From the NCBI GenBank assembly GCA_905233905.1, contig CAJOFN010000002.1:1-59628 (forward strand): a DNA stretch of 59,628 nt, written 5' to 3'. The notes beneath the pieces are model-generated. The model did no database searches and was not told the DNA's origin. It saw only the letters and a list, made by a program, of their open reading frames with translations. This document shows positions 16,886 through 54,364 of this stretch, piece by piece. The stretch comes from an uncultured Lachnospiraceae bacterium (GTDB lineage Bacteria; Bacillota; Clostridia; Lachnospirales; Lachnospiraceae). Position 1 is the first letter of the stretch; each line of letters begins with the position of its first letter. A program made the translations under genes and the position numbers.

Positions 16886-17086
16886 AAGCAAACCCGGAAT
16901 GTCGGGCCTATTTTTTTGACTCCTAGCCAAAGCCAGGTGGGTGACCGCAAATGATCTTCTGCCTTCCACCGCGAGATGAAGCATCTCTGAATGAGGCCTG
17001 GCATAGGATCAAAGATATAGGTGTCCCGTTTAAAGTAGATGTAGGTTCAAAAACAATAGGTTGAATCGAGCATTCCAGGTACTTGT
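16886..17086 (-). ncRNA. ssrS: 6S-like RNA immediately upstream of leuB (boundaries approximate)
   Basis: Hand fold gives a rod. Closing stem CCUGGAAUG(17071-17079)/CAUUCCGGG(16893-16901), then UCG/CGA, CCUA/UAGG and U/A-rich pairs. Bubble with 3'-side hairpin CCUGGC-UUUG-GCUAGG. Terminal arm GGG..ACC/GGU..CCC capped by GAGAUG-CUU-CAUCUC. About 200 nt, as expected for 6S RNA. No covariance model was run. Confidence 0.7.
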
Positions 17087-47009: not shown

Positions 47010-47027
47010 TGTCAAGGTGTCTATCGT

Positions 47028-48858: not shown

Positions 48859-50190
48859 CTACATTATCACGCCAAGGAAAATAAATCCAAGTATAATATC
48901 TACTACTGTAAGGATGATTATCGCCACATCTCTCCACTTGGACCACTTATACTTAACCTTGACATCCTTTTCTGCCTCTTCAAAATGATCCTGCTCCGTA
49001 ATGAAATCCTGGATATTGCGGTAAACCTTGACATCCTCAGAATGTATCTTTTCAGATAATTCATCCTTCATGCCCTCAACCTGACGGCTGACACCGTTAA
49101 GCGACTCGGAAATCTTCTTTTCGTTGGACAGCATGGCATTGGACAAAAAGCTCTTCTGATCCGCAAACACCTCGTCAAAGGACTGGGTTCCGGCATTCTT
49201 TTGAAGATCAATGATCTCCTCAAGCTTCTCAGAGATTGACGAGAACACATCCTCCATACGCTTGGACTGTTCATCAAATCCCCTGCTTATAAACTCTGTA
49301 TCTATTGAAACCTCCTGCATCTCTCCGGGAAGGTTTGCCGGTATCTCGGTAATGTGCTCAGCCAGACGCTGCTCCATTCCCTCAATATCCTTGCCAAGGA
49401 TCTCGGAAAGCCTGTTGACCTGCTCCTCTATGTCAGCAGCGGCATCTCCTGTCTCCTGACGGCTGCGTACCAGCTCTTCTTCAAGTATCCGGTTGCGCTC
49501 ATTGACATCAGCAAGGGATCTCTCCAGATAATCCACCCTGTCCTGCTTGTCGTCGATTATCTCCTGAAGCTGTTTTGCCTTGTCGCGGAAAGAATCAAGC
49601 TGTGACTGGAAGGAATCTCCGTAAGAGTCTCTGCCTCGTTCTGCTCTGGATACTCCCATATTATCACGGGGAGCGCTATAGCGTTCATCGCGCCCACGGT
49701 AATAAGGCTCTTGATTTCTCATGTCGTCCCGACGATCATTGCCGCGCCTGTCTTCGTTATCATAAGACGCGCCCTGGGTCTGCTCGGAGGGTTCAAATGA
49801 GTCATCCTTTGCAGCGCCTCGATTGTCGTACCCGTCATCAAAAGAACTCTTGCCACGGTTGTCGTACTCATCGCCGTAAGCTCTCCGGCCACGGCCATCA
49901 TACTCATCACCGTAGGGTCTCTGGCCGCGGTTATCGTACTCATCCCCATAAGCTCTCTGACCACGATCATAGCCCTGCCTGCCATATCCGGCACCGTCAC
50001 GATCGTAATCTCCTCTTCCCCTGGGATCATCATAGTCGTAAAAATCACGCCTTACGTCACGATAGGCATCATCCCTTGACATTCCCCTGTGATCGTTAGA
50101 ATATCCGTCTCTGTACTGATCGTCATAGCTTCGACGTCTTCCTTCCCGATAATCATCAAATCTGGGGGTCTGCCGATATCTCTCTTGCAT
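48859..50190 (-). CDS. Protein with Arg/Tyr/Asp/Gly-rich low-complexity N-terminus, coiled coil and C-terminal TM anchor
   Basis: MQERYRQTPRFDDYREGRRRSYDDQYRDGY..., heptad-like middle (DKAKQLQEIIDDKQDRVDYLERSLADVNERNRILEEEL), C-terminal IIILTVVDIILGFIFLGVIM. Confidence 0.85.
   Translation of the reverse strand: MQERYRQTPRFDDYREGRRRSYDDQYRDGYSNDHRGMSRDDAYRDVRRDFYDYDDPRGRGDYDRDGAGYGRQGYDRGQRAYGDEYDNRGQRPYGDEYDGRGRRAYGDEYDNRGKSSFDDGYDNRGAAKDDSFEPSEQTQGASYDNEDRRGNDRRDDMRNQEPYYRGRDERYSAPRDNMGVSRAERGRDSYGDSFQSQLDSFRDKAKQLQEIIDDKQDRVDYLERSLADVNERNRILEEELVRSRQETGDAAADIEEQVNRLSEILGKDIEGMEQRLAEHITEIPANLPGEMQEVSIDTEFISRGFDEQSKRMEDVFSSISEKLEEIIDLQKNAGTQSFDEVFADQKSFLSNAMLSNEKKISESLNGVSRQVEGMKDELSEKIHSEDVKVYRNIQDFITEQDHFEEAEKDVKVKYKWSKWRDVAIIILTVVDIILGFIFLGVIM
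49822..49965 (-). repeat. 4 x 36-bp in-frame tandem repeat (consensus about GQRAYGDEYDNR)
   Basis: Four consecutive 36-bp units at 49822, 49858, 49894 and 49930 encode GQRAYGDEYDNR / GQRPYGDEYDGR / GRRAYGDEYDNR / GKSSFDDGYDNR. Confidence 0.9.
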
Positions 50191-50261
50191 TGACTCATTC
50201 TCCTCTTGTATTTTGTGTTATCAAAAACCACAACATATAGAGTTATAATATCATTTCAGCA

Positions 50262-50643
50262 CTATTTTGTAAACTCCTGTGACAAATAATAAAACAATTT
50301 ATCGTGGTCTATTGGCTTTGACACCAGATAATTCATGCCGGCTGTCCTGACCCTCTCTCTTGCCTCGTCTGTAGCGTCGGCAGTCAGCGCTATGATCGGA
50401 ACGTCCTCCGCATCCTTCATGGGAAGCATTCGGTAACAGGCATGGCGGAATACTTGGTCAGTATATCTGCCAAAAGGCTTTTGTGATTTGGTGCAAGATG
50501 CTGAATAATGACATATGCCATCCCTGTATTTGATGGCAGAAAGGTTAAAAACTGCTGGAGCGCTTCGAGCCCCCTGCTGATGCTCCGATACCAACTATGC
50601 CTGCGGGCTGCTTATTCATTGGAACGTTGTTATTGCTATACAT
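50262..50643 (-). pseudogene. Deletion-scar pseudogene: CheB methylesterase N-terminus fused to the C-terminal half of a receiver domain
   Basis: From ATG at 50643: MYSNNNVPMNKQPAGIVGIGASAGG, frameshift, LEALQQFLTFLPSNTGMAYVIIQHLAPNHKSLLADILTKYSAMPVTE, then another frame RMLPMKDAEDVPIIALTADATDEARERVRTAGMNYLVSKPIDHDKLFYYLSQEFTK. Confidence 0.85.
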
Positions 50644-50688
50644 CCCCTTATATCTCCATGATAAATCTATAAATACATCACTAATAAA

Positions 50689-50717
50689 GCCGCCCATGCA
50701 TCAAACGCACGGGCGGC
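50689..50717 (-). terminator. Intrinsic terminator downstream of pyruvate:ferredoxin oxidoreductase
   Basis: Minus strand GCCGCCCGTGC ... GCATGGGCGGC followed by TTTATT. Confidence 0.65.
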
Positions 50718-50734
50718 ATAAAATCAAGCCTCGA

Positions 50735-53700
50735 TCAGTCGGCTGAATACAGGGTTACCAGCTTTTCAAGATGCTTGCGGTAAGCCTTGTGATCTTCTTC
50801 GTTCTTCTCGAAGAGCTTCGCCGCCTTATCCTTATCAACCTTCATCAGTGATGCATAACGAGCCTCACCCTTGATGAATTCCTGGAAGTCTCCTGTAGGC
50901 TCCTTGGAATCTAATGAGAATGCATCCTTGCCCTCTGCAGCGAGTGCAGGATTATAACGGAAGTTGAACCAGTAACCTGACTCAACAGCCAGCTTCTCTT
51001 CTGTCTGAGCCTTGGACATACCCTTGCGGATACCGTGGTTGATACAAGGAGCATAAGCAATGATAAGGCTGGGTCCGGGATAAGCTTCTGCCTCTGCCAG
51101 AGCCTTAACGCACTGATTCATATCAGCGCCCATTGCGATATGAGCTACATATACATAGCCGTATGTCATAGCGATACCGGCAAGATCCTTCTTCCTTGTC
51201 TCCTTGCCGCCTGCCGCGAACTGTGCAACGGCCGCTGCGGGTGTAGCCTTGGAGGACTGTCCGCCTGTGTTGGAGTAAACCTCTGTATCGTAAACCATAA
51301 CATTGATATCCCTGCCTGATGCAAGAATGTGGTCTACGCCGCCGAAGCCAATATCATAAGCCCAGCCGTCACCGCCGAATACCCACTGTGACTTCTTGGA
51401 CAGGAAATCCTTCTCCTTTAAGATTTCCTTGGCCGCAGCGCTTCCGTCTGCCTCAAGTGCAGCAATAAGCCTGTCTGTAGCAGGTCCGTTGGCGATACCG
51501 CTGCCATAGGTGTCCTTCCACTCTGCAACAGCAGACTTAACATCATCACCGGCTGTCTCGCAAAGGGTCTCAAGCTGCTCGCAAAGCTTTTCCCTGATAG
51601 CCTTTGAACCTAAAAGCATACCATAACCGAACTCTGCGGCATCCTCAAAGAGTGAGTTGGACCAAGCGGGACCATGACCCTTCTTGTTGATGGTGTAAGG
51701 TGTTGAAGGTGATGAGTTACCCCAGATGGATGAGCAGCCTGTAGCATTGGCAATGTACATCCTGTCACCGAACAACTGTGTAAGAAGTTTAGCATAAGGA
51801 GTCTCACCGCAGCCGCCGCATGCGCCTGAGAACTCAAGCAGGGGCTGTCTGAACTGTGAACCCTTAACTGTGGCAAGCTTGAACTTCTCGATAACGTCTT
51901 CCTTGTCGGGAAGGGTAACTGCATAGTCGAAGTATTTCTGCTGCTCTTCATTCTGCTCGAAGGAAGCCATTGAAAGAGCCTGTACCTTGTCAGGACATAC
52001 ATTAACGCATGAGCCGCAGCCTGTACAGTCAAACGAAGATACAACGATGGCAAATTTCTTGCCGGGCATTCCGGTCATATCCTTCATAGGCATACCCTCG
52101 GGAGCTGCTGCAGCTTCTTCCTCTGTCATTGCAACAGGTCTGATTGCAGCATGAGGACATACATATGAACACTGGTTACACTGGATGCACTTTGTAACGT
52201 CCCATACAGGAACATCAGTAGCTACGCCGCGCTTCTCGTGTGCAGCAGTACCGCTGGGTGTAACACCGTCAGCATACTTCTTGACAACGGATACGGGGAT
52301 CGTGTTACCCTGCTGTCCGTTGACCTTGGTCTGGATATCCTTAACGAAATCAATAACCTCAGGACGATCCTTGCGGAGCTCAACTGAAAGGTCGGTATCG
52401 GGAGCGTTCTTCCATGACTCGGGAACATCAACCTTGATAACAGCGTTAGCGCCGGCATCAATAGCGTCATGATTCATCTTTACGATGTCATCACCCTTCT
52501 TGGAGTAAGAAGCTGTAGCGGCATCCTTCATGAGCTGGATAACCTTCTCTGCGGGGATGAGCTCTGTGAGCTTGAAGAATGCAGACTGAAGCACCGTATT
52601 GATACGGTTGCCAAGTCCGATCTCCTTACCGATCTTAACACCGTCGATGATGTAGAAGTTGATGTCATTCTCTGCGATATAACGCTTAACCTGTCCGGGA
52701 AGCTTCTCATCGAGCTCATCAACAGTCCACTGTGTATTGAACAGGAATGTACCGCCGGGTACAAGATCCTGAACCATGTTGTACTTGTTGATGTATGCCG
52801 TACAATGGCAGGCAACGAAGTTAGCCTGTGAGATCAGGTAGGTTGACTTGATCGGAGTATGTCCGAAACGAAGGTGTGAAATAGTAACACCGCCGGACTT
52901 CTTGGAATCATAGTCAAAGTATGCCTGAGCATACATATCGGTATTGTCGCCGATGATCTTGATGGAGTTCTTGTTGGCACCAACAGTACCGTCTGCGCCA
53001 AGTCCCCAGAACTTACAAGCCGTTGTACCCTCCGGAGCGGTAACAGGTGTTTCTGTACGAGGAAGTGAAAGGTTGGTCACATCATCTATAATTGACAGTG
53101 TGAATTTAGGCTTGTCTGTGTTGTGGAAGGTAGCGATGATATCTGCGCTGGTGGTATCCTTTGAACCAAGACCGTAACGTCCGCCAAATACCTCAACAGA
53201 CTCAAACTTTGTACCCTTAAGGGCAGCAACTACATCGAGATAGAGAGGCTCTCCAAGTGAACCGGGCTCCTTGGTACGGTCAAGAACAGAGATATTCTTT
53301 ACAGTATCAGGAATAGCGTCAACTAAAGCGCTTGCAACGAAAGGACGGTACAGGCGAACCTTAACAACGCCGACTTTCTCGCCCTTGCCCATAAGGTAAT
53401 CAATGGTCTCGTCTATAGTCTCGCATACAGAACCCATTGCAACGATGATACGCTCAGCGTCAGGAGCTCCATAGTAGTTGAAGAGCTTGTAGTCTGTGCC
53501 GATCTTCTCATTTATCTTGTTCATGTACTCGGTTACGATAGCGGGAAGCTTGTCGTAGAACTCGTTGCAGGCCTCACGGGTCTGGAAGAAGATATCAGGG
53601 TTCTGAGCGGAACCCATCTCTACGGGATGGTTGGGATTAAGGGCATTGGCGCGGAACTCGTCAATAGCGTCCATATCTACCATTTCCTTAAGATCTTCAT

Positions 53701-54262
53701 AATCCCAGGTCTCGATCTTCTGGATCTCGTGGGATGTACGGAAACCGTCAAAGAAGTTAATGAAGGGAACCCTGCCCTTGATCGCTGACATATGAGCAAC
53801 CGGTGTCAGATCCATAACTTCCTGTACGGAAGACTCGCAGAGCATAGCCACGCCCGTCTGACGGCAGGCATAAATGTCTGAATGATCGCCGAAAATGTTC
53901 AGAGCGTGCGAAGAAACGCAGCGTGCTGATACATTGAATACTCCCGGGAGATTCTCGCCCGCAACCTTATAAAGGTTCGGGATCATAAGTAAAAGTCCCT
54001 GAGAAGCGGTGTATGTGGTGGTGAGTGCGCCTGCTGCAAGTGATCCGTGAACTGTACCGGCTGCACCTGCCTCTGACTGCATCTCTGTCACCTGAACAGT
54101 CCGTCCGAAGATATTCTTGCGACCGGCTGTAGCCCATTCGTCAGTAGCCTCTGCCATTACAGAAGACGGCGTAATGGGATAGATGGCTGCTACATCGGTA
54201 AACGCGTATGAAGCGTGTGCCGCTGCATGGTTACCATCCATGGTTTTCATAGCTCTTTTCAT
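50735..54262 (-). CDS. nifJ: Pyruvate:ferredoxin (flavodoxin) oxidoreductase
   Basis: MKRAMKTMDGNHAAAHASYAFTDVAAIYPITPSS..., CIQCNQCSYVCPHAA and CTGCGSCVNVCP clusters, ThDP motif GGDGWAYDIGFGGVDH. Start moved to MKRAMKT; the ORF track extends it to 54364. Confidence 0.96.
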   Translation of the reverse strand: MKRAMKTMDGNHAAAHASYAFTDVAAIYPITPSSVMAEATDEWATAGRKNIFGRTVQVTEMQSEAGAAGTVHGSLAAGALTTTYTASQGLLLMIPNLYKVAGENLPGVFNVSARCVSSHALNIFGDHSDIYACRQTGVAMLCESSVQEVMDLTPVAHMSAIKGRVPFINFFDGFRTSHEIQKIETWDYEDLKEMVDMDAIDEFRANALNPNHPVEMGSAQNPDIFFQTREACNEFYDKLPAIVTEYMNKINEKIGTDYKLFNYYGAPDAERIIVAMGSVCETIDETIDYLMGKGEKVGVVKVRLYRPFVASALVDAIPDTVKNISVLDRTKEPGSLGEPLYLDVVAALKGTKFESVEVFGGRYGLGSKDTTSADIIATFHNTDKPKFTLSIIDDVTNLSLPRTETPVTAPEGTTACKFWGLGADGTVGANKNSIKIIGDNTDMYAQAYFDYDSKKSGGVTISHLRFGHTPIKSTYLISQANFVACHCTAYINKYNMVQDLVPGGTFLFNTQWTVDELDEKLPGQVKRYIAENDINFYIIDGVKIGKEIGLGNRINTVLQSAFFKLTELIPAEKVIQLMKDAATASYSKKGDDIVKMNHDAIDAGANAVIKVDVPESWKNAPDTDLSVELRKDRPEVIDFVKDIQTKVNGQQGNTIPVSVVKKYADGVTPSGTAAHEKRGVATDVPVWDVTKCIQCNQCSYVCPHAAIRPVAMTEEEAAAAPEGMPMKDMTGMPGKKFAIVVSSFDCTGCGSCVNVCPDKVQALSMASFEQNEEQQKYFDYAVTLPDKEDVIEKFKLATVKGSQFRQPLLEFSGACGGCGETPYAKLLTQLFGDRMYIANATGCSSIWGNSSPSTPYTINKKGHGPAWSNSLFEDAAEFGYGMLLGSKAIREKLCEQLETLCETAGDDVKSAVAEWKDTYGSGIANGPATDRLIAALEADGSAAAKEILKEKDFLSKKSQWVFGGDGWAYDIGFGGVDHILASGRDINVMVYDTEVYSNTGGQSSKATPAAAVAQFAAGGKETRKKDLAGIAMTYGYVYVAHIAMGADMNQCVKALAEAEAYPGPSLIIAYAPCINHGIRKGMSKAQTEEKLAVESGYWFNFRYNPALAAEGKDAFSLDSKEPTGDFQEFIKGEARYASLMKVDKDKAAKLFEKNEEDHKAYRKHLEKLVTLYSAD

Positions 54263-54335
54263 ACTTTCTCCTCCTAACTGGGTTAATAAATTCCTATACT
54301 GGTCCCCCATAACTCTGACAGACCCATTAGATACA

Positions 54336-54364
54336 ATAGTATAAGAAATCTTATGAAAAATCAA
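54336..54364 (-). promoter_or_regulatory. Candidate nifJ promoter (TTGATT-N17-TACTAT)
   Basis: -35 at 54359-54364, -10 at 54336-54341. Confidence 0.5.

Follow-up and report, generated by a model that had tools for sequence, protein, structure and literature searches.

Hybrid histidine kinases that carry CheB and CheR domains ahead of a kinase and a receiver are large signalling proteins, common in rumen Lachnospiraceae. In a congener of the bacterium studied here (genome G005, contig JAFUYB010000055.1, isolate RGIG4930), the protein is encoded by one open frame of 1247 aa, with CheB (residues 17-190), CheR_N (213-263) and CheR (277-467) domains followed by a coiled coil, and a C-terminal half made up of PAS_10 (726-819), HisKA (872-937), HATPase_c (985-1096) and Response_reg (1125-1238) domains. 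The aspartates of the CheB motif GTGSDG and of the receiver motif DLMMP have well-known roles, the latter being the phosphorylated residue. The homologue is full length in G005 and partial, at contig ends, in G004 and G002; about 70 further homologues, mostly full length, occur in rumen or gut Lachnospiraceae and a few others, e.g. Sharpea, and homologues are also present in Butyrivibrio and Oribacterium. A literature search returned nothing on the CheB-CheR-PAS-HK-REC architecture in Lachnospiraceae, and NCBIfam holds no model of the full architecture, the matches listed all lying under their cut-offs. Near the intact gene in G005 there is also a 990-aa frame (L024, 425-3394) with an amino-acid-permease-like start and a histidine kinase and receiver at its end.

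Here we describe a small scar in a 59,628-nt stretch of DNA from an uncultured Lachnospiraceae bacterium (contig CAJOFN010000002.1, hereafter the window). The scar shares both ends of the CheB-CheR hybrid histidine kinases, in the same order and orientation, but differs from them in that the middle 1118 codons are gone and the frame is broken twice. We consider it probable (roughly 0.87) that the scar is a dead gene, the remnant of a CheB-CheR-coiled coil-PAS-histidine kinase-receiver protein after an internal deletion.

The scar matches both ends of one intact protein

The scar lies on the minus strand, from 50643 to 50262. It opens with CheB codons 1-72, which lack one base after codon 24, and continues in another frame with the 55 codons that close a receiver domain. 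The features of the locus are as follows.

50735-54364, minus strand: pyruvate:ferredoxin oxidoreductase-type protein (PFOR), intact neighbour, identified by its sequence, with 92-94% identity in congeners
50689-50717, minus strand: PFOR terminator, upstream of the remnant
50570-50643, minus strand: putative 5' remnant of the CheB-CheR hybrid kinase gene, codons 1-24, with ATG at 50643 and GASAGG motif (frame a, MYSNNNVPMNKQPAGIVGIGASAGG)
50570-50574, minus strand: run of five G, one base shorter than in relatives, the frameshift (from comparison with relatives)
50429-50569, minus strand: putative 5' remnant in shifted frame, through codon 72 (LEALQQ...MPVTE; ends YSAMPVTE; frame b, tblastn)
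50429-50435, minus strand: deletion junction, codon 72 to codon 1191, about 3.35 kb gone; CCGA probably common to both sides, judging from relatives
50262-50435, minus strand: putative 3' remnant, last 55 receiver-domain codons (RMLPMKDAED...QEFTK, then TAG; frame c, Pfam and G005 match)
50245-50273, minus strand: promoter of the coiled-coil gene (TTTACA, 17 nt, TATTAT), conserved in G003 and G005
48859-50190, minus strand: 443-aa Arg/Asp/Tyr-rich coiled-coil protein with C-terminal membrane segment, intact neighbour

An earlier note on this DNA had read three peptide segments here, a CheB start and then a receiver end, naming no strand. All three are present on the minus strand, with E values far beyond chance: in tblastn searches of the genome, the CheB pieces gave 4.3e-27 and 2.9e-12 (the first searches used a single peptide made from both CheB frames, and each piece also matches on its own), while the receiver piece gave 2.8e-18 against the G005 protein. 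Pfam finds positions 1-56 of 174 of CheB_methylest (PF01339, E 1.5e-17) as an N-terminal domain with no receiver ahead of it, and positions 67-107 of 111 of Response_reg (PF00072, E 1.3e-6, slightly below the gathering score, which is normal for a partial domain) as the last, C-terminal domain. The scar is not one open reading frame but is spread over three, and the longest piece with a start is 110 aa. Its composition is not odd (44-45% GC vs. 44-53% in the surroundings). No RNA families or tRNAs were found at the scar, the nearest being tRNA-Trp at 47027, and a search for flanking repeats as the mark of a mobile element gave only the tandem repeats of the neighbouring gene and short chance repeats. 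Elsewhere in the window, a 6S RNA is encoded on the minus strand (16887-17084; Rfam RF00013, 56.8 bits).

Aligned with G005, the scar matches residues 1-72 and 1191-1245 of the protein; at the DNA level the agreement is 78% across 186 nt and 72% across 156 nt, with about 3.35 kb between the two. Both ends of a single intact congener protein are thus matched in order, strand and adjacency, which supports the reading of the scar as a dead gene. The earlier note had proposed a CheB-CheR-PAS-kinase-receiver ancestor with an internal deletion, its main test being whether the two fragments belong to one gene in relatives; the 1247-aa protein, matched by the scar at either end, shows that they do. 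Receiver domains are common in this genome and the two pieces could in principle be scraps of separate genes brought together. However, both have the same protein as their best match, the receiver piece and the matching end of the G005 protein share 67% identity vs. about 39-45% between that protein and separate receivers of these genomes, and intact copies exist in congeners, making this origin scarcely credible.

About 1118 codons (73-1190) are absent from the scar. Since these hold the CheB aspartate region (GTGSDG), all of CheR, the PAS, HisKA and HATPase_c domains and the receiver aspartate (DLMMP), no domain of the scar would be able to work. Neither a second copy of the gene nor a displaced copy of the missing middle was found in the window's genome, a draft of 112 contigs and 1.65 Mb that is an estimated 93% complete (G005 is 3.0 Mb), and CheR, PAS, HisKA and HATPase_c have no close homologue elsewhere in it.

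Two separate lesions

At the G run, the sequence is GGAGGTCTCGAA in G004, GGAGGGCTTGAA in G005 and GGGGGCTCGAA in the window, the relatives being one base longer ahead of CTCGAA. The first frameshift had been ascribed to the loss of a single C; the one-base shortfall is borne out, whereas a lost C is one possibility only, the shortfall lying at the end of the five-G run. The large junction, previously put at about 50425-50435, can be placed at 50435-50429. It reads GTTACCGAATGCTTCCCATG in the window, compared to GTGACCGAGATC on the 5' side in G005 and ATCCGAAGCCTTCCTATG on the 3' side in G004. The junction fits the microhomology sought there, four bases, CCGA, that were likely common to both ends of the deletion, as judged from relatives, the lost sequence itself being gone.

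The best explanation is that an ancestral hybrid signalling protein of about 1.25 kaa (CheB-CheR-coiled coil-PAS-histidine kinase-receiver) would have lost codons 73-1190 when some 3.35 kb within its gene was deleted, the ends of the deletion probably lying at short matches (CCGA). A separate loss of one base in the G run would have broken what remained of the CheB start, and either event could have come first.

Alternatively, the gene may be intact in the organism and have been collapsed or misjoined by the assembler. The draft is fragmented, at 112 contigs, and the kinase/receiver half is multi-copy (22 matches in the genome), the kind of stretch that breaks assemblies. Such an artefact would nevertheless have to account for two unrelated lesions within 150 bases, the one-base loss lying apart from the junction, and for joined ends that come from the same gene in the correct order and orientation; the approximately 4 shared bases at the junction are too few for an assembler overlap, and G003 and G380 have comparable deletions in genes of this type (see below). 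We therefore regard an assembly error as unlikely, though it is the chief doubt left, and a genuine internal deletion as the better account.

The remnant occupies a variable slot and overlaps a promoter

The remnant begins 46 bases past the PFOR terminator (50717-50689) and, at its other end, runs into the coiled-coil gene promoter: among its last codons, those for F-T contain the -35 box (TTTACA) of this promoter, which scores 10-of-12. This raises the alternative that the remnant is retained for some use, either because its 3' end is part of the promoter or because the 110-aa frame (50262-50594) is translated. The same promoter (GTTTACAAA...) is present in G003 and G005, which at first sight favours such a use; both genomes, however, have it without any CheB or receiver sequence, suggesting that the last few bases suffice and that the remnant is unneeded. 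As for the 110-aa frame, it has a TTG start in a non-native frame and would yield out-of-frame sequence plus half a receiver lacking the phosphorylated aspartate. Retention for either purpose is accordingly very improbable; as a dead gene, the remnant would have no working domain and would now do no more than separate the PFOR terminator from the coiled-coil gene promoter. In G004, the gene ends in GAGTTTATGAAGTGA, and the ancestral gene and the promoter may have been fused at a similar GTTTA..AA.

The gene order PFOR - coiled-coil gene - pyrophosphatase is kept in G003 and G005. The gap between the first two (window 50190-50735; L153, L154 and L156) is a variable slot: it is empty, with no CheB gene, in G003 and G005, holds a glycerophosphodiester-phosphodiesterase-like gene (named from sequence) in G002, and holds the CheB-CheR scar in the window. 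The position of the CheB-CheR gene differs among G000, G003, G004 and G005. In a tree of the kinase half, G002, G003 and G005 form one clade (100/100), and the gene is therefore old in the genus.

Regarding the neighbouring coiled-coil protein, 36-nt tandem repeats (window 49826-49969) encode part of its Arg/Asp/Tyr-rich N-terminal region; the repeat part varies between congeners, unlike the conserved C-terminal part. NCBIfam has no match for this 443-aa protein.

The loss appears recent and has parallels in other genomes

The earlier note had also judged the loss to be recent. The nonsynonymous divergence (dN) of the remnant from G004 and G005 (0.096 and 0.103, respectively) is about that between the two intact copies (0.092), a small sample of only 108 codons in which synonymous sites are saturated. 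The remnant has thus gathered no extra amino-acid changes, which supports the view that the gene was probably lost recently relative to the species split.

In the congener G003 (L025, 9150-9500), codons 1-63 remain and are followed, in a different frame, by sequence from about codon 603 onwards. In G380, from another genus (L152, 8960-9260), the gene survives only up to about codon 76 and contains a stop, and synteny with its sister G064 shows that the gene's remainder, together with the flavodoxin-like and TetR-like neighbours and the spacer, is lost. These two deletions are independent losses of homologous genes. In large samples every other N-terminal match sits in a long frame, and no new truncated copy was found in about 790 genomes of the order or family (partly overlapping the earlier sample).

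The 5' breakpoints, at codon 72 in the window, 63 in G003 and about 76 in G380, fall within about 13 codons; uniform breakpoints would cluster in this way with a probability of about 0.0004, a figure computed post hoc on three cases. With three losses in three species and two genera, codons 63-76 of CheB-CheR genes might be a deletion-prone site, an unlikely idea to which we give little weight. A stable hairpin at codons 58-80 was considered as a cause of the clustering and rejected, as it was inconsistent over four intact genes.

Relation to known systems

The window's genome contains a CheB-like gene (C70), a CheR-like gene (C17) and 11 MCP-domain matches elsewhere. Since these remain, loss of the hybrid protein would not be a loss of chemotaxis as a whole; it is seen here in a genome of small assembly size that still has chemoreceptors. 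For annotation, the scar is a caution that the 110-aa frame could be called automatically, and wrongly, as a receiver protein, and it documents that a large signalling protein has been lost more than once. New here are the recency of the loss by divergence, the differing gene positions, the promoter overlap and the independent losses in two other genomes.

What the remnant shares with stand-alone CheB and CheR is a CheB catalytic domain, of which the first third survives; the ancestor would have differed in having a CheB without N-terminal receiver, fused to CheR and a kinase. The closest parallel is with bacterial pseudogenes made by internal deletion, which show the same out-of-frame joining of ends at a short shared sequence and the same slip in a G run, with no paralogue needed, and from which the scar has no essential difference. 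By all appearances, it is an ordinary, fairly recent deletion pseudogene, and biologically ordinary.
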